The notes under the pieces are model-generated. The model was not told the DNA's origin. It searched no databases and saw only the letters and a program-made list of their open reading frames with translations. From Microbacterium caowuchunii (GTDB taxonomy: Bacteria > Actinomycetota > Actinomycetes > Actinomycetales > Microbacteriaceae): DNA of 64,000 nt. The translations under genes and the position numbers were made by a program. Where the stretch lies: the NCBI RefSeq assembly GCF_008727755.1, contig NZ_CP044231.1, positions 868,001 through 932,000 of the forward strand, in the 5' to 3' direction. Positions 37,766 to 56,205 of the stretch are shown piece after piece (position 1 is the stretch's first letter; each line of letters opens with the position of its first letter).

Positions 37766-38659
37766 TCAGATTGCGGATCGGTCCGGCCCAGCGGCCGCCA
37801 CGCTCAGGCCGTCATCTCCGGGCTCAACTGGCAGCGTCGCCTCGAATCGGTCGATGAGGATGGGGATAGCCGTCGACGCCCACCAAGAGGGGGTGATCCC
37901 GCCTGCGGACATGCCGTGTCCGGGATCGAACTCGGGCACATGAAATGGCTCGTCTTCGTCCGTCAGCGCCCGTCCGGTGATGCTCTCGAAAGCCGTGCGG
38001 ATCAGCTCCTCGAGCGCCCAAGCGTCCGCCGGAAGTGGAACGGAGGCGAACTCCGCCCGCATCGCCCTCCAGAGATACGCATCGCCGCGAAAACCCCACT
38101 GATAGGGCGCTCGGTCGAGGAGCTGCCCGACCGATCTGGGGTCGGTCGGTGGGGGGAAGTGCCTCAGGACCTGCGCGCGTACCCGCCGGTGCGTCGATTC
38201 GTTGAACGATACGAGCCGCACATCCTCGACTCGAGTCAGTGTGTGCGCGATCGTCTCGAGCGCCACGTCGAGCGCGTCGTCCAGCGGCCACCCGTAGACG
38301 CCGGCGCTGATGAGCGGAAAGGCCATGCTGCGCGCGCCGAGCTCGTCTGCGATCGCCAACGCTCGCCGGTAGCAGGACTCAAGCAGCGAGCGATCCTGTT
38401 CGCCCGCCTGGTGGTTCGGCCCCACGGCGTGGATCACCCATCGCGCCGGCAGCTTCCCGGCGGTGGTCCAGCCGGCGTCGCCGGTGCGCAGTCCATCAGG
38501 GAAGCGCGCGATGCACTCATCGAGGATGGCGCGTCCCCCTGCGCGATGGATGGCGCCGTCCACTCCACCTCCACCCCGCATATGGCGATTGGCGGCGTTG
38601 ACGATGGCGTCGACCGCCTGCTCGGTGATGTCGCCGTGAACGGCGGTGACGGTGACCAT
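37766..38659 (-). CDS. Macro-domain (ADP-ribose) protein with C-terminal extension
   Basis: 297 residues. Residues 1-165 are a macro domain: AVHGDITEQAVDAIVNAANRH, MRGGGGVDGAIHRAGG, GDAGWTTAGKLPARWVIHAVGP, and MAFPLISAGVYGWPLDDA. This type binds ADP-ribose or removes it from proteins or O-acetyl-ADP-ribose. Residues ~175-297 are a separate domain that I recognise only as one also seen alone in other actinobacteria: YQWGFRGDAYLWRAMRAE ... PGHGMSAGGITPSWW ... IPILIDRF. Its function is unknown. Soluble. Start ATG at 38659. Confidence 0.88.
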   Translation of the reverse strand: MVTVTAVHGDITEQAVDAIVNAANRHMRGGGGVDGAIHRAGGRAILDECIARFPDGLRTGDAGWTTAGKLPARWVIHAVGPNHQAGEQDRSLLESCYRRALAIADELGARSMAFPLISAGVYGWPLDDALDVALETIAHTLTRVEDVRLVSFNESTHRRVRAQVLRHFPPPTDPRSVGQLLDRAPYQWGFRGDAYLWRAMRAEFASVPLPADAWALEELIRTAFESITGRALTDEDEPFHVPEFDPGHGMSAGGITPSWWASTAIPILIDRFEATLPVEPGDDGLSVAAAGPDRSAI

Positions 38660-50143: not shown

Positions 50144-50668
50144 GTGGAGCCAGCGGCCAACATTGCCCAGGGTGTCCAGATGTTCGTCGCGGCGCCAGCA
50201 ATCGTTTGGGCCGAGAGGGGCGCGTCTGGCGACTCCACTGTCGTCGGACGGCATAGGCAGATCGTGACTTTCAGGCTCAGCCCCGTCTCGCAGGCCGATT
50301 GCGCAGTATGGGTGCGACACGGCTTAGAGCGAGATGTTACGGAGGTGCCGCTGTGACCAGACTCAACGGGCGAGGTTCGAGGGCGAAATCGCGAGCTGCG
50401 ACGCCTGACCGAATCTGCGTCTAGTTCCACACGCGAAACTTTCAGTGAGTTCATCGAAGTGCTCGGTCAACTACAGCTCGACGGCCAGTCCGCGTCAGAG
50501 GTTTCGCGCTACGAGGAGCTACTCGGCGAGCTTCAGGTGCGAAGCCAAAACGCTTGTGCGGAGTCCGAGGCGGAGATGCAACGTCTTCTGCGTGTGACCT
50601 CTCGCCGCCCCGCTCTCCAGCTTGAACACGCGCGCTCGCTGCCAAAGGGCCGGCGTACGCGCGGATGA
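50144..50668 (+). pseudogene. ORF interrupted by an in-frame TGA (two parts, unknown family)
   Basis: From GTG 50144 the frame is open to TGA 50354-50356, and then, in the same frame, to TGA 50666-50668. The first part (70 codons) reads MEPAANIAQGVQMFVAAPAIV and GRHRQIVTFRLSPVSQAD. The second (about 103 codons) reads like a helical, coiled-coil region (GRNRELRRLTES, YEELLGELQVRSQNA, EMQRLLRVTS). The only ATG/GTG/TTG codon early in the second part is GTG 50459. Its end overlaps the start of the next gene (ATGA), as in an operon. Either a nonsense mutation split one gene, or two small genes lie in line. Bases 50016-50143 hold nothing clear. Confidence 0.45.
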
Positions 50669-51927
50669 CTTGGGTGCTAGGCGTCGCCGGTGCTGACGAC
50701 GACGGTGACTGCGGCTCACTCGACGCCTATCTGCGCGGCGCGTCTACGTGGTACGCAGAGTCTCTCATCCGGATGATCGCCCACCCTTCAGAATCGAGTC
50801 TTCTTGGTATCGCTCCCGCGGCGCGTCACACCCGGATGGAATTCGGGAGCACGTCATTTCGATGGGTGTGCGCACTCTTCGCGCGGGCAATCGATGTCTG
50901 GGCAGACTTAGCGGGTGGTGATTGCGCGAAACTCTTCGGCGGTGGCCGTACCAGAGCGCTGTCCGATGCGATCGGGAGTAAGTTGCCTCTGCCAGACCAG
51001 TCGGTTCTGGCGCCTGTGCATCCCACGGTGCTTGACGCCATGACGGCACGTCCGCGGCCAGCGACCGCTTTCGCCGAGCTAATCGAAAGCAACGGCCCCG
51101 AAACCGAACCACTGTTTCGAGTTGGATCCGAAGTGTTCATCGGTAATGCGTCGGCGCTTGTGTTCGGGCTCGAAACCGTCTTGATGTCGGCGATTCAGCG
51201 GGTTCTGGGTTCGGGGGCACAGGGCGACGCATTTGAGTTCGCGTGTCACTACATTGCAGAGTCGCTACTTCCCCCGTCCGTACACGCGTACCGCGACTCG
51301 TTCGTGTCGGACACATTGACCGCTTCTGACGGTGACGAGGTAGACCTTCACCTCCATGCAAAGGGCATGGATGTCATCATCGAGGCGAAGTCCTACATTC
51401 CGACGGGATCCGCTGAGTCGGCAGCAGCCAGCTATGAGCAACTGCTCAAGGCCAATAAGCAGGTCGAGCGTCGGGTGACTCGCATTCGGGACGGTAAGTG
51501 GATACGGCGCAAGCGCGCGAAGAATGGGGATCACGTGTCTGGCCTGGTCGTTTCGCTCCACGACTACACGGGTCAAACGTGGAGACCGGAGTCCATGCTC
51601 GAAAGTGGCGCCGAAACCTTCATCGCAATGCCGCTGCAGGCGTTTGCCGTGTCGATGGGATGCATGCGGTCTGCTGAAGACCTGATCCAGTTTCTGGAGG
51701 TTCGTTCTGCGATCGGCAGACTCTCAATCTCGGGCGGCGACGAGCTCGAGACGCTTCTTGGTTGGATGTCCGGCTGGCGGCCCGAAACGTTGCCACACGA
51801 AGCGGGGGCGAGAGTGCAGGTGCGACCTCGTTCCATCCGCACTGACGAACTTCTAAGCGCCCAGTGGAGCGGTCCGGACGCGTGGCGCGAGTATCTCTTT
51901 CGAGTGAGCAAAGCGATACACGCTTGA
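50665..51927 (+). CDS. Predicted PD-(D/E)xK nuclease-like protein
   Basis: 420 residues, unknown family. A short N-terminal alpha/beta part is followed by a large helical middle (FVFGLETVLMSAIQRVLGSGAQGDAFEF). The core is a PD-(D/E)xK-type motif: Asp227 (DEVDLHLHAKG), then Glu240-Ala-Lys242 (DVIIEAKS), with a following helix rich in Gln/Lys (YEQLLKANKQVERRVTR). Many restriction and anti-phage nucleases share this spacing. Soluble. ATG 50665 overlaps the preceding frame. Its position after the restriction cluster supports a defence role, which is unproven. Confidence 0.65.
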   Translation: MTWVLGVAGADDDGDCGSLDAYLRGASTWYAESLIRMIAHPSESSLLGIAPAARHTRMEFGSTSFRWVCALFARAIDVWADLAGGDCAKLFGGGRTRALSDAIGSKLPLPDQSVLAPVHPTVLDAMTARPRPATAFAELIESNGPETEPLFRVGSEVFIGNASALVFGLETVLMSAIQRVLGSGAQGDAFEFACHYIAESLLPPSVHAYRDSFVSDTLTASDGDEVDLHLHAKGMDVIIEAKSYIPTGSAESAAASYEQLLKANKQVERRVTRIRDGKWIRRKRAKNGDHVSGLVVSLHDYTGQTWRPESMLESGAETFIAMPLQAFAVSMGCMRSAEDLIQFLEVRSAIGRLSISGGDELETLLGWMSGWRPETLPHEAGARVQVRPRSIRTDELLSAQWSGPDAWREYLFRVSKAIHA

Positions 51928-52430: not shown

Positions 52431-53078
52431 CTATCGAGCGGAGCCCCCCAGGGCTGAGCTGGGAGCGGCTTTGCGCGCGACCCGACGAGTGTCCAGCGCC
52501 GTGCCGAATTGCGTCAGGTCACGCTCGGTCAAGAAGCCTGCCACTTCCACCGTGCCGGCTGCGGTCACTCGCAGTTCCAGTCGATTCTTCGATTTCGTCG
52601 GATCGAAGTCTTCGTACCGAGGGGTGAGATGGATAAATCTCTGGTTCGTTGAGCCGACTAGGGAGCGGTTCGACTCAGGTTCGTCCGACAGGTAAGGCCC
52701 ATCGACGAGGAGGTCGACATCGTTAAGCAGCGCTCGCGCATCGTCGCTCTGAAGGGTCTCATGGGTGTAGCCGGTGAAGCAAATGACGCCGAGTCCTGCC
52801 TTGTGTGCGCGGCGTGCGAGGTCCGCGCATTGCGCGGCCTGATCGAACGGTTCGCCCCCGAGGAGTGTGAGTCCTTCGACGTTCTTGGCGAGGGCGTCGC
52901 GGATAACTACTTCCGGGTATATGAGATGGCCCCCGGAGGGATTGAAGAGGTTCGGATTGATGCAGCCGAGGCAGCGGATGCTGCACCCTTGCACCCAGAT
53001 GGCTGAGCGGCGGGCCGGTCCCTCGGCGGTGACGTCGTGAAGGACACGGGAGACACGGAGTGAGGCGTTAGAACTCAA
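52431..53078 (-). CDS. NrdG-like radical-SAM activating enzyme
   Basis: 215 residues from the TTG at 53078, which overlaps the stop of the preceding gene (a longer frame reaches 53243, but that part is antiregister with the membrane-protein gene). Radical-SAM cluster motif CSIRCLGC (C32, C36, C39: Cx3CxxC), followed by LLGGEPFDQAA, the SAM-binding GGE motif. It resembles the 4Fe-4S single-cluster activases of anaerobic ribonucleotide reductase and of peptide-modifying enzymes. No NrdD is present, so the target is unknown; candidates are the DUF2997 or DUF1257 proteins of the same operon. Last gene of a five-gene unit. Confidence 0.88.
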   Translation of the reverse strand: MSSNASLRVSRVLHDVTAEGPARRSAIWVQGCSIRCLGCINPNLFNPSGGHLIYPEVVIRDALAKNVEGLTLLGGEPFDQAAQCADLARRAHKAGLGVICFTGYTHETLQSDDARALLNDVDLLVDGPYLSDEPESNRSLVGSTNQRFIHLTPRYEDFDPTKSKNRLELRVTAAGTVEVAGFLTERDLTQFGTALDTRRVARKAAPSSALGGSAR

Positions 53079-53907
53079 GGCGCCGCCCACTGGAGGGGGC
53101 CTCCGGCGTGGGCGCAGAAGGACGACCGGCTCGGATCTCGAGGTGCTCTCGCACGAGTGCGAAAAAGTGGGGCTGCATGCTGGCGGCGGTGACGAGCTCG
53201 GAGGTGTCTTTGAAGCCGCCGATTCGTTCGCGCGTGGCGACAATGTGATCCGCCCAAGCGTCGTTGACTCCCGGGAGCGAGGCGAGTTCTTTGCGGCTCG
53301 CTGTGTTCAAATCGAACACCGTGGACGCGCCGCTCGTGGGCGAGCCGCTGGGCTGCGGGGGCAGGCTCGGAGCCGGGCGCGTCGCCGAGGGATGGTTCAG
53401 TTCGGGGCGTGCGGCGGGTTGCGGTCGGGGTGCTGACGTCACTGGTGCGCCGCTGGCGAGGGCGTTGTCGATGATGCTCGGAGCAGTCGTTGAGCCAGCT
53501 GCCGGGGCAGGTGCTATCTGCGTCGCGGTGGCGTCTCGATACCAGACTTTCTTGCGGTAATGAGCACGCCACACGAGCCATTGCCGGTTCACGAACCATT
53601 GCAGCGCAAAGGCGTTTCCAAGCCATACCGCGACGCCCAGCCATCCCCACCACGCATTGCTGACCGGGTCCGGGTGAGGGGCGTACTTCTCGACGGCGCT
53701 CCACGATCCGGCCCAAACGAACCACAAGACGATCCACGCGAGAAGGGTGCCTGAAATCAGCAGCCACTTCCAGTTGCGAGCCTTGATTCCGATGATTAGG
53801 TATCCGACCCAGGCGAGGATGGCAAACGGGAAGAACCCGAAGAGGAGCCACCAGCTGTGGGCGAGGCGCCACTTGCGGCTGCAGAGGAGTTCCTCAGGCG
53901 TTCTCAT
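53068..53907 (-). CDS. Membrane protein with C-terminal ComEA-like helix-hairpin-helix domain
   Basis: 279 residues. ATG 53907 (MRTPEELLCSRKWRLAHSWW) is chosen; longer frames overlap DUF2997 too far. Three to four helices: WWLLFGFFPFAILAWVGYLI, WKWLLISGTLLAWIVLWFVW and GWLGVAVWLGNAFALQWFV, then basic YRKKVWYRDA, a long Ala/Pro-rich linker (~130-200), and a ComEA-type HhH domain (FDLNTASRKELASLPGVNDAWADHIVATR). HhH domains bind DNA or act as protein docks. The start overlaps the DUF2997 end by 14 bases, and the stop overlaps the radical-SAM start by 11 bases. I infer a membrane dock for the operon's other products. Confidence 0.85.
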   Translation of the reverse strand: MRTPEELLCSRKWRLAHSWWLLFGFFPFAILAWVGYLIIGIKARNWKWLLISGTLLAWIVLWFVWAGSWSAVEKYAPHPDPVSNAWWGWLGVAVWLGNAFALQWFVNRQWLVWRAHYRKKVWYRDATATQIAPAPAAGSTTAPSIIDNALASGAPVTSAPRPQPAARPELNHPSATRPAPSLPPQPSGSPTSGASTVFDLNTASRKELASLPGVNDAWADHIVATRERIGGFKDTSELVTAASMQPHFFALVREHLEIRAGRPSAPTPEAPSSGRRLEF

Positions 53908-54124
53908 GATTCTCTCCGTGACGGTAGATTGCCTCGTGGCCCGTGGCGCGGGTAATCGTTGTCGCGCCCGAGAACTCGGGGGTGGGTTTGGATTCGGCGA
54001 CCTGGGCATTCAGCATGGAGCGCAGCTGGTCGAGGCTGTCGAGACAGTCGGGGCCGGGTGTGCCGCTTGCCTCAGCGGTGATGGTTCCGTCGGGGCGTAC
54101 GGATACCTCTAGTCGTCGTGGCAT
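53894..54124 (-). CDS. DUF2997 domain small protein
   Basis: 76 residues. Start at the second ATG of an ATG-ATG pair (54124), because it overlaps the DUF1257 stop in the TGATG form and has AGGAGG four bases upstream. The protein has a short beta-rich core: RLEVSVRPDGTITAEASGTPGPDCLDSLDQLRSMLNAQV, the DUF2997 pattern, with one Cys, then an acidic and polar tail. DUF2997 is found next to DUF1257 and Ycf46-type ATPases in cyanobacteria as well. The size would suit a substrate or adaptor for the AAA+ or radical-SAM partner. Function unknown. Confidence 0.85.
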   Translation of the reverse strand: MPRRLEVSVRPDGTITAEASGTPGPDCLDSLDQLRSMLNAQVAESKPTPEFSGATTITRATGHEAIYRHGENHENA

Positions 54125-54561
54125 CATGCCTCCTCGAAGACGTAGTTGAGGGAGCCGTCTTCTTCTCGTTGTTCGATGAGTCGGAAGCCGAGGGCGCGTG
54201 CTCGTTCGACGACGATCTGCGCGGTGCGTGCCTGCATGACCCGTCCGACGGCTTTGTCAAACTCGGCGAGCATTCCGAGGGTGGTGGCTTCGTCGGCACC
54301 GTCGACGCGTCCGAGGATCACGTTTCCGACCTTCTGGAACGTCAGGGTGCCCCACTGGCTGGTGGCTTGAAGGCGGTCGTTACCGGTGTGAGTGATGGTG
54401 GCGCCCATGGCCAGGAGCGCGTCGTGCGCTACGTCCACCTCGGTGACGCGGGTGGCGCGGCACTTCTCGCAGAGGTCTTCCGAGCGTGCTTCGCGCACGA
54501 GGGAGTGGATCGCGGAGTATGCGGCGATGCCGGCGGGGATAAGGAGGACTTCGATGCTCAT
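54124..54561 (-). CDS. DUF1257 (Ycf35-like) protein with CxxC
   Basis: 145 residues. The plan of DUF1257: N-terminal MSIEVLLIPAGIAAYSAI, middle segment DALLAMGATITHTGNDRLQAT (typical of the family), then NVILGRVDGADEATTLGMLAEFDKAVGRVMQARTAQIVV. Residues C31 and C34 (LCEKCRATRV) form a CxxC, a possible metal or Fe-S site. The chloroplast/cyanobacterial homologue is Ycf35, whose role is not established. It starts 7 bases after the AAA+ stop and overlaps the next gene by one base. Confidence 0.87.
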   Translation of the reverse strand: MSIEVLLIPAGIAAYSAIHSLVREARSEDLCEKCRATRVTEVDVAHDALLAMGATITHTGNDRLQATSQWGTLTFQKVGNVILGRVDGADEATTLGMLAEFDKAVGRVMQARTAQIVVERARALGFRLIEQREEDGSLNYVFEEA

Positions 54562-54567
54562 GGGCGG

Positions 54568-56205
54568 TTAGAAGTCGATGGCGCGGCCGCCGCGCCAAGA
54601 CGAGACGTCGTTAGGGTCGGTCGGTGCGGAGTGATCGTACGCGCCCCTCGAGTCGGCCGAGGTGGCGGCGACGGCCCGGCTCTCGGCCCATTCTCGGATG
54701 CGGGTAATCTGCTCCGCCTGCGTCACGGACAGTGGCACGGTGTTCTCGACGGTGCGGAGCAAGTCGTCGATGGTCACGCGGCGGCGCTCCGCGAACGCGT
54801 CGAAGCACGCGCCGATGACGGCTTGCTCGATCTCTGCTCCCGAGAACCCTTCGCTGACCGTGGAGAGCTTCTTCAAGGCGTCTGGTGACGCGTCGAAGCC
54901 GCCGCCCGCTTTGGAGTCGCCGGACAATCGGCGGTCGAGGTGGAGCTTCCAAATGTCTTCGCGCTCGAGTTGTGTGGGGAGGTCGACGAAGAAGATCTCG
55001 TCGAACCGGCCTTTGCGGAGGAACTCGGGGGGAAGAGCGTCGATTTTATTGGCGGTGGCGATGACGAACACCGGGCTCCTCTTCTCCTGCATCCAGGTGA
55101 GGAACGTGCCGAAGACGCGCTGGCTGGTGCCGGAGTCCCCGCCGCCCCCAACGGAGCCGAACCCCTTCTCAATCTCATCGATCCACAGGATCGACGGAGC
55201 AACTGCTTCGGCGAGCTTGAGCGCGTTGCGCATGTTCTGCTCGCTCGAGCCAACGAGGCCGGAGAACACGCGGCCGACGTCGAGACGCAGGAGGGGGAGC
55301 CCCCACTGTGCGGACACGCACGCCGCCGTGAGGCTCTTTCCACATCCCGGCACGCCGGTGATGAGCAGCCCCTTAGGTGCGGGAAGAGACCACTCCGCGG
55401 CTTCCGGGAGCCACGCCCCGTCACGCTTCAGCAGCCATCTCTTCAGGTTGTCCAGACCGCCGACTTCATCGAGGCTCCTAGTAGGCGGGATGAACTCGAG
55501 TAGCCCGGACTTGCGGATGGTCTGACGCTTCTCCTCGAGGATGAGAGCGATATCGTCGGCGTTCAGGACCCGGTCGGTCACGATTGCGCGAGCGAACGCG
55601 TTGTCCGCCTCCCACAGGGTGAGGCCCTGGGCCGCCTGAATCAGGCGCATCCGGTCGTCACCTTCCAGCTCGTCACGGATCGCGTCGCGGTTCGCGGACA
55701 CAATCGACTCCAGTGCCCCCGCGATCTCCGTCGCGTCCGGCAGGGGAAGGTCGACGACGGTCACGATCTTTTCCAGATCGACCGGCAGAGCAAGGCCGGG
55801 TGCGACGATCAGGAGCGTGTGGGGGACGGGGCCGCTCTTGAACGCTTGCGCGACGTCGAGGATTGCCCGGACAAGCCCCGGTTCGGCGGGCCGGCCGCCG
55901 ACACCGAGCTGGTGGTGCAGGTCCAGGAAGACGAAGACGGTCGGTTCGGTCGCTTTGATGGCTTCGAGAAGCGCCTCCTCGGGAAGAACGCGGCGTCCGC
56001 CCGCGCTATCGCGAGCGTGCAGCCCATTCGTCAGGGTGTACTGCCGGACAGCGCGACCGCGGGGAATGCTGCCTTTCTCCAGGAGGTCCTCGACAGCATC
56101 AAGGACACGGTCGGGCTCCTGCGTCTCGACCAGGAGAACAGGGTGACGTGCACGGATGAGTTCCGTGAGCGTGCGCTGGAACGGAGAGAGCGAAATCGCC
56201 GTCAC
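54568..56205 (-). CDS. Ycf46-like AAA+ ATPase
   Basis: 545 residues. N-terminal domain of ~240 residues typical of Ycf46 (HPVLLVETQEPDRVL ... FVFLDLHHQLG ... TLLIVAPGL ... IEEKRQ-like helix), then a classic AAA module: Walker A GVPGCGKS (284-291), Walker B ILWIDEIEKG (339-348), sensor/arginine finger FLRKGRFDE (about 396-403), and a C-terminal helical lid (GFSGAEIEQAVIGACFDAF). ATPase subunits of this type form hexamers that remodel proteins. It is the first gene of the operon. ATG at 56205; the region upstream carries no clear promoter. Confidence 0.93.
   Translation of the reverse strand: MTAISLSPFQRTLTELIRARHPVLLVETQEPDRVLDAVEDLLEKGSIPRGRAVRQYTLTNGLHARDSAGGRRVLPEEALLEAIKATEPTVFVFLDLHHQLGVGGRPAEPGLVRAILDVAQAFKSGPVPHTLLIVAPGLALPVDLEKIVTVVDLPLPDATEIAGALESIVSANRDAIRDELEGDDRMRLIQAAQGLTLWEADNAFARAIVTDRVLNADDIALILEEKRQTIRKSGLLEFIPPTRSLDEVGGLDNLKRWLLKRDGAWLPEAAEWSLPAPKGLLITGVPGCGKSLTAACVSAQWGLPLLRLDVGRVFSGLVGSSEQNMRNALKLAEAVAPSILWIDEIEKGFGSVGGGGDSGTSQRVFGTFLTWMQEKRSPVFVIATANKIDALPPEFLRKGRFDEIFFVDLPTQLEREDIWKLHLDRRLSGDSKAGGGFDASPDALKKLSTVSEGFSGAEIEQAVIGACFDAFAERRRVTIDDLLRTVENTVPLSVTQAEQITRIREWAESRAVAATSADSRGAYDHSAPTDPNDVSSWRGGRAIDF

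Follow-up and report, generated by a model that had tools for sequence, protein, structure and literature searches.

Two mutually unrelated proteins encoded by a five-gene operon of the actinobacterium Microbacterium caowuchunii, an AAA+ ATPase and a membrane protein with a helix-hairpin-helix (HhH) domain, share a terminal peptide, and all five genes are conserved together. The operon occupies the minus strand at positions 52431-56205 of the stretch analysed here (64,000 nucleotides of contig NZ_CP044231.1, positions 868,001 to 932,000, assembly GCF_008727755.1; hereafter the window) and encodes, besides these two, a DUF1257-like protein, a DUF2997 protein and a NrdG-like radical S-adenosylmethionine (radical-SAM) protein. 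DUF1257, DUF2997 and Ycf46, the last being an AAA+ ATPase, have little assigned function and are familiar chiefly from cyanobacteria and plastids. An earlier annotation of the window (the original prediction) had described five adjacent genes at this place, where the open reading frames (ORFs) are indeed present; the shared peptide, a new finding, was absent from it, as was the link to FtsH-ternary conflict systems described below. Our tentative reading, to which we give a little less than an even chance, is that the operon would form one membrane-tethered AAA+ protein-remodelling machine, with the shared peptide as a docking tag.

Co-conservation of the operon and its shared C-terminal peptide

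Relatives were collected by scanning one genome per species with a profile of 24 radical-SAM relatives, which gave 381 places; the 80 best-scoring genome loci were retained and supplemented with eight plasmid loci and a segment of the window, 89 stretches in all. Genes in these were called by a simple longest-ORF scheme, and iterated profiles of each of the five proteins (for DUF2997 two rounds, with 69 matches) were run against them. The complete set occurs in 66 of the 89 stretches, 62 of these among the 80 genome loci, so their co-occurrence goes beyond chance, in counts that reflect the selection of the bacterial loci by radical-SAM similarity. The co-conservation across genomes for which the original prediction had proposed a neighbourhood survey is thus found, and the opposite outcome, that the genes rarely co-occur, did not appear. 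In all 66 five-gene loci the best hits lie on one strand, and ten gene orders occur, the order of the window being the commonest (33 loci). The phyla represented in the radical-SAM tree described below include Actinomycetota, Bacillota, Bacteroidota, Melainabacteria (Gastranaerophilales), Fusobacteriota, Sumerlaeota and Planctomycetota. The remaining 18 genome loci comprise 12 labelled fvm (see below), two truncated close to the end of their contig (L013, L060) and a further four (L054, L056, L072, L080). A survey of 394 genomes of the class provided a less biased check than the radical-SAM-seeded loci: DUF2997 exceeded its cut-off in three, each time with a close radical-SAM relative adjoining it; a fourth genome carries DUF2997 below the cut-off with no radical-SAM relative beside it, 10 of the 394 have a radical-SAM relative (E 1e-20) and no DUF2997, and none was found in the 11 other same-genus genomes listed from this survey.

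The AAA+ protein (54568..56205, minus strand, 545 amino acids (aa), GTG start; Pfam AAA 1.1e-29) consists of a conserved N-terminal region, a C-terminal AAA+ module and a tail of about 34 residues, while the HhH protein (53068..53907, minus strand, 279 aa; HHH_3 9e-13) is a multi-pass membrane protein with a proline-rich linker, one HhH domain and the tagged C-terminus. Both end in R-x-[VILMF]-[DE]-[hydrophobic]-COOH, here as GRAIDF-stop (54568..54588, minus strand) and GRRLEF-stop (53068..53088, minus strand), with the consensus GGRx[VIL]D[FY] on the AAA+ proteins and GRx[LVI]D[LYF] on the HhH proteins. A search of the 3.26 Mb window genome at the DNA level with the pattern G-R-x-[VIL]-[DE]-[FLYHQ]-[stop or W] gave six matches and a reversed-pattern control four; within this search, limited to forms containing the G, exactly two matches end in a stop codon, and these are the AAA+ and HhH genes.

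Among the called ORFs, the pattern R-x-[VILMF]-[DE]-[FYLVIWM] followed by at most three residues ends 62 of 81 AAA and 67 of 72 HhH ORFs, compared with 0/88 radical-SAM, 0/68 DUF1257-like and 1/69 DUF2997 ORFs; among 8237 other ORFs of 40 aa or more, 16 carry it. Of 775 neighbour genes no shorter than 90 aa, three match, two of which are themselves operon members, a TPR-HhH protein (L063) and a membrane protein ending in DREVDL beside the radical-SAM gene (L040), and one of which is not (L087). When the best protein per locus is taken from the 66 loci carrying all five genes, on which all family-wide counts below are based, the motif is exactly terminal in 56 AAA and 61 HhH proteins and lies within three residues of the end in five more AAA proteins; internally it occurs five times per protein set over 192 upstream positions in 66 proteins, or about 0.04% per position. 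A G precedes the R in 56/56 exact AAA tags and 48/65 HhH tags. Both proteins are tagged in 57 loci, one in eight and neither in one, and when the AAA proteins are clustered at 70% identity, 20 of the 24 clusters include a doubly tagged locus.

The tag follows varied fronts. Proteins with hydrophobic segments and a tag, lacking the HhH part in the alignment, are encoded at L018:2971-3471 and L017:5604-6227, and a further membrane-plus-tag protein at L040:6300-6998; two tagged proteins of L063 carry TPR repeats, and those of L067 and L069 combine GYF_2 with HhH. Because membrane-plus-tag proteins without HhH exist, the tag is separable from the HhH domain, and the idea that it forms part of that domain was rejected. 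Some DUF2997 proteins end similarly (IRRIDF in L044, IKNIEY in L033).

The original prediction had called the system undescribed, and no description of the five-gene set or of the shared tail was found in the literature searched on DUF1257, DUF2997, Ycf46, Ycf35, radical-SAM enzymes, FtsH-ternary systems and jumbo phages, a search whose scope left most subscription papers outside. Neither set nor tag is described in the available text of PMC4284462, PMC13131479, PMC5940233, PMC7496141, PMC7824862, PMC10954446 or PMC7159879.

Layout of the operon and its protein families

The five genes are near-contiguous or overlapping, as had been predicted, although the spacing differs in detail from the claimed -14 to +7 bases: the measured intervals in operon order are +6, -4, -14 and, for the radical-SAM gene, which ends at 52431, either -23 with a start at GTG 53090 or -11 with a start at TTG 53078. 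The AAA+ module is compatible with the role of remodelling engine proposed earlier. Its relatives retain Walker A in 66, Walker B in 64 and RKGRF[DN]EIF in 63 of the loci, and the protein is 40-41% identical (over 96%) to AAA proteins on two cyanobacterial plasmids; the label Ycf46-like was given to it by the first annotator from the letters of the window, and no Ycf46 model came up in the libraries used here.

The second gene (54124..54561, minus strand) encodes a protein of 145 aa with a short hydrophobic N-terminus (MSIEVLLIPAGIAA), described earlier as a DUF1257 protein with a CxxC. No Pfam model matches it and the DUF1257 model (PF06868) finds no match in the whole genome, but kinship with DUF1257 is visible by profile-profile comparison, and only so, its family matching five proteins annotated as DUF1257 with probability 92.5, E 4.9e-7, over 107 columns. 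The CxxC, kept in 13/66 relatives, was rejected as a general trait of the family. A search of the PDB with this protein gave nothing useful. The hydrophobic stretch at the start recurs in 57/66 relatives and fits a predicted location at the membrane side. The third gene (53894..54127, minus strand) encodes a DUF2997 protein (PF11211, E 8.7e-10, 38.8 bits against a cut-off of 24.1) of 77 aa, one more than the 76 given previously, with a GxxC conserved in 64/66 relatives. The HhH protein, which had been likened to ComEA, scores below the cut-off of that family (27.9 bits against 152.35 for comE, with a match confined to the HhH part); its description as a membrane-anchored partner is borne out, at least one N-terminal hydrophobic segment being present in 61/66 relatives by a simple hydropathy count.

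The gene set is extended or varied in several places. In 10 actinobacterial loci with the order AAA-2997-rSAM-1257-HhH, an additional gene (265-458 aa as called, for example at L020:3975-4964, L029:3790-5016 and L076:3785-5029) forms a BLAST cluster upstream of the AAA gene and is a possible sixth component; the one member scanned has no Pfam match. On a Pseudanabaena plasmid (L086, 1589-7533), chaperone genes accompany the DUF1257, DUF2997 and AAA genes, the row consisting of GrpE, Hsp70, DUF1257, an ATP-binding protein, an unknown protein, DUF2997 and AAA. A 212 kb plasmid of Bacillus licheniformis (L181), which may be phage-like, carries AAA, DUF1257 and DUF2997 genes with a ThiF-family gene, a 4Fe-4S protein and an FAD-dependent thymidylate synthase, and a Treponema succinifaciens plasmid (L084) carries a radical-SAM gene and an AAA gene (ending VRKLEM) amid annotations of VgrG/Pvc8-family and baseplate assembly V proteins.

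The radical-SAM enzyme and its relatives

The last gene (52431..53090, minus strand) encodes a protein with CxxxCxxC and GGEP, both retained in 66/66 relatives, which is predicted to carry a single 4Fe-4S cluster (Fer4_12 5e-30; Pfam Radical_SAM 22.3 bits, under the cut-off of 29.5). It is very improbable that this protein is an ordinary NrdG with incidental neighbours: NrdG (TIGR02491) is its best curated model and some sources so name its relatives, but the score of 86 bits lies under the cut-off of 126.1, and four NrdGs from plasmids or phages group on a branch of their own (98/87) in a tree of 99 radical-SAM rows. Searches of the window genome revealed neither NrdD (PF13597; a control found it in 6/14 genomes) nor a glycyl-radical domain (PF01228; control 3/14 genomes), and because both are missing there, the protein appears not to be a class III ribonucleotide reductase (RNR) activase. 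This upholds the earlier remark that no such reductase is at hand for the activase, and extends it from the neighbourhood to the genome, and no standard NrdG with an nrdD elsewhere is found. The glycyl-radical partner also suggested by the original prediction falls away, and glycyl-radical activation was rejected, given that the genome has no Gly_radical domain; the invariant Gly and Cys of DUF2997 are moreover kept in Pseudanabaena L086, where the retrieved stretch has no radical-SAM gene.

In the same tree, 12 rows labelled fvm and four others form a branch of 16 (100/91) among the five-gene rows, several of the branches being long and the deep placements unsure. The fvm label derives from BLAST clusters of neighbouring genes (the fvmX5 cluster with six loci, fvmX6 with eight, fvmX7 with seven), one member of each being Pfam-scanned and so named (fvmX5 in L077, fvmX6 and fvmX7 in L064), with an AAA and peptidase M41 protein in L066; L074 and L079 are labelled solely through other shared neighbour clusters. 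Such neighbours define the FtsH-ternary conflict systems, whose radical-SAM enzyme has been proposed to modify a peptide effector (available text of Kaur et al. 2020, PMC7159879). The C-terminus of fvmX5 resembles the DUF1257-like family (probability 78.6, E 1.7e-5, 54 columns); no match was found between fvmX5 and annotated DUF1257 proteins, and a fusion of fvmX5 with DUF2997 had no support. The enzyme of a Moellerella plasmid (L082) also lies on the branch that includes the fvm-labelled rows, and on this plasmid (1-7576) an AAA-domain protein, a PIN-domain protein, an unknown protein, an AAA ATPase and the radical-SAM gene stand in a row near ArdA.

Genomic setting and a possible role in conflict

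The operon of the window lies beside a restriction island that starts after a tRNA-Arg and holds a Snf2-type helicase, DUF4391, type III Mod and Res genes and a GmrSD-like gene; the opposite flank of the operon carries a recognisable GNAT-type gene. At the far edge of the island a Macro-domain protein (37766-38659) stands beside tRNA-Arg(CCT), and an ORF of 420 aa between the GmrSD-like gene and the operon (50665-51927) gave no match to Pfam or PADLOC at E 0.001. A search of 39 same-genus genomes, its own included, gave no clear empty site of the island; in one (G436), the matches to a tRNA part of the left-hand query and to part of the right-hand query are about 31 kb apart on one contig.

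The original prediction had placed the operon in a defence-type island and allowed a conflict or phage-defence role. The first part stands for the window copy; as a general feature, defence-rich flanks were rejected, given that 117 close neighbours (of the 224 nearest listed, from 34 loci among L001-L043, with longer proteins and near-duplicate loci excluded) matched 12 PADLOC families at 1e-10 with one member each, in a comparison that includes no control flanks. Pfam assigns the flanks to 97 families, and the 25 shown are mostly ordinary; among them are SIR2, PLDc_2 and DUF4143, families that also occur in defence genes. Against PADLOC 2.0.0 the five proteins have no specific match: the AAA+ protein matches partially, the matches to IetA covering its AAA part only, and the other four give nothing at E 1.

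These data bear on two further explanations of the operon. The first, which we regard as unlikely, is that it would serve in conflict or against phages as a pared-down relative of the FtsH-ternary systems, its AAA+ and radical-SAM proteins priming an effector. The nesting of the fvm-labelled enzymes, the Pfam names and the AAA-M41 protease of their neighbours and the resemblance of fvmX5 to the DUF1257-like family speak in its favour, as do the patchy distribution of DUF2997 (4/394 class genomes, one below the cut-off), the plasmid copies and the adjacent restriction island; it is countered by the few PADLOC matches among the close neighbours and the lack of specific ones for the five proteins, by the failure of fvmX5 to match annotated DUF1257, by an operon in which no effector-like gene was recognised and by the presence of AAA and DUF2997 relatives on virus-derived contigs. 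The defence reading accordingly rests on kinship with conflict systems and on the patchy, partly plasmid-borne distribution rather than on island enrichment, and a defence role is unproven. It seems similarly improbable that the operon plays no part in conflict and encodes a chaperone module for stress or envelope maintenance, similar to cyanobacterial Ycf46/Ycf35. The available texts report Synechocystis ycf46 (slr0374) in a stress-responsive operon (PMC7496141) and a conserved cyanobacterial DUF2997-ycf35-fed7 cluster (PMC4284462), and the ordinary flank families agree with such a module; the patchy, partly plasmid-borne distribution, however, is unlike that of a housekeeping module, and the complete set is found on a contig classed as viral (L099) too.

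A putative docking tag and its possible reader

Related AAA genes were also sampled in 80 virus-derived loci, on contigs that may be fragments. The full five-gene set occurs within 6 kb in one of them (L099) and is missing from 79; the 17 kb contig of L099, classed as viral, could be bacterial DNA. With A also allowed as last residue, the AAA proteins of these loci end in the full tag in 16/80 cases, in phi-[DE]-phi (phi, hydrophobic) in 31/80 and in two acidic residues plus L in 19/80. Tagged neighbours include DUF3150 (L163), DUF6744 and WGR (both L139) proteins, but since tagged second proteins are rare there, single ones may be due to chance.

Twelve virus records were scanned further. Radical-SAM relatives were found in three, DUF2997 in eight and DUF1257 in four at E 0.01, three of these over the cut-off. 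No radical-SAM match was found anywhere on the contigs (42-548 kb) of the nine records whose AAA protein has a tag-like tail, three of which also encode an unshadowed tagged second protein, so the tail apparently does not depend on the radical-SAM enzyme. This bears on the suggestion, which we consider quite unlikely, that the shared peptide is itself the substrate, the enzyme modifying the AAA+ and HhH tails with the HhH domain and linker as recognition element and spacer. NrdG-type activases act on the C-terminal segment of their partner, and in the 66 five-gene loci, chosen by their radical-SAM gene, that gene is present in all and a tag on at least one protein in 65. A modified peptide has also been proposed for the FtsH-ternary enzyme (available text of Kaur et al. 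2020, PMC7159879). The nine virus contigs, fragments though they may be, argue against this suggestion, as do 10 loci with AAA and radical-SAM genes only, nine of them fvm-labelled, in which the AAA protein is untagged.

If the peptide is instead a docking tag, as we tentatively prefer, it would be read by a common partner, most likely DUF2997, the DUF1257-like protein or both, which would act as adaptors. The tag would recruit the ATPase to the HhH membrane partner and hold both at the membrane, where the ATPase may remodel or extract the tagged partner or a bound client; the HhH domain probably recognises that client, DNA or protein, and the radical-SAM enzyme may modify a peptide or protein belonging to the system, as a switch that sets or licenses its activity. 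As to the reader, virus loci with an unshadowed tagged second protein have DUF2997 (scored with its own profile at E 0.01) within 6 kb in 5/6 cases, compared with 21/74 others (Fisher p 0.013, with relatedness ignored; L109 and L113, among the loci tested, have an identical tagged tail), and in the sixth, L139, it lies further along the contig; the radical-SAM gene gives 1/6 versus 7/74 (p 0.48). DUF2997 is thus a candidate tag reader and no more.

Several observations weigh against this reading. When the AAA proteins are clustered at 60% identity, there are four clusters, only two of which include a doubly tagged locus; 10 of the 66 AAA tails are inexact, five having one to three residues after the motif, two being divergent (RARKLYF in L017, GGRSLTVDM in L039) and three showing no tag in the called frame (L043, L052, L055), and five HhH proteins lack the exact terminal motif. 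In the virus loci, tagged unshadowed ORFs of at least 90 aa number 10/873 on the strand of the AAA gene and 0/215 on the opposite strand. The identity of the tag reader, moreover, is guessed from co-occurrence in a small number of contigs, some of them related, and DUF2997 was not found in four of the five contigs tested that have a tag-like tail on the AAA protein only.

A broader proposal, in our view somewhat unlikely, would make R-x-phi-[DE]-phi-COOH the address code of the whole Ycf46-type AAA+ class in bacteria and viruses. DUF2997 and DUF1257 adaptors would deliver tagged proteins (HhH membrane, TPR and GYF proteins, perhaps also the phage DUF3150, DUF6744 and WGR proteins), the radical-SAM enzyme would be a switch of the five-gene branch, and the FtsH-ternary systems would be a derived branch in which the motor was swapped for a protease. 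A compact unit that spans seven phyla, two of its proteins sharing a short C-terminal motif, in any case allows direct questions, namely whether the tail docks the ATPase, and to which partner, and what the radical-SAM enzyme changes.

Comparison with known systems

The operon resembles several known systems in part. The cyanobacterial DUF2997-ycf35(DUF1257)-fed7 cluster likewise places DUF2997 next to DUF1257 and an Fe-S protein, but Fed7 is a 4Fe-4S ferredoxin rather than a radical-SAM enzyme, and neither an HhH protein nor a shared tag is seen in the available texts on that cluster and on Ycf46 (PMC4284462, PMC7496141). With NrdG the operon shares a short radical-SAM protein with CxxxCxxC, from which the window protein differs in score and branch and in a genome without NrdD. 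The AAA+ module belongs to the same general group as that of the IetAS-type AAA/protease pairs, to which an antitoxin in SGI1 is related (available text of PMC10954446); the match is limited to the AAA part, and there is no protease among the five genes. The virus-derived AAA/DUF2997/DUF1257 contigs have a related, sometimes tagged AAA protein and DUF3150, WGR and DUF6744 neighbours that end alike, and differ in that all but L099 lack the full set within 6 kb.

The FtsH-ternary systems share with the operon radical-SAM enzymes of one group, the 12 fvm-labelled rows lying inside the five-gene rows, a classical AAA partner and, in the C-terminus of fvmX5, a resemblance to the DUF1257-like protein; Ycf46 and DUF1257 are absent from the main text of Kaur et al. 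2020 (PMC7159879). The five-gene operon differs from them in having no MoxR, von Willebrand factor A (vWA) or M41 protease component: a scan of the five proteins and of 10 more ORFs of the window found no MoxR-vWA core, the rest of the genome and the fvm-labelled loci lying outside that search, and the AAA+ protein of the window has no M41 domain, which is present in L066, the one example scanned. It adds, in turn, DUF2997 and the tagged HhH membrane protein, and the radical-SAM enzymes of FtsH-ternary-type conflict loci are now placed within a wider family.

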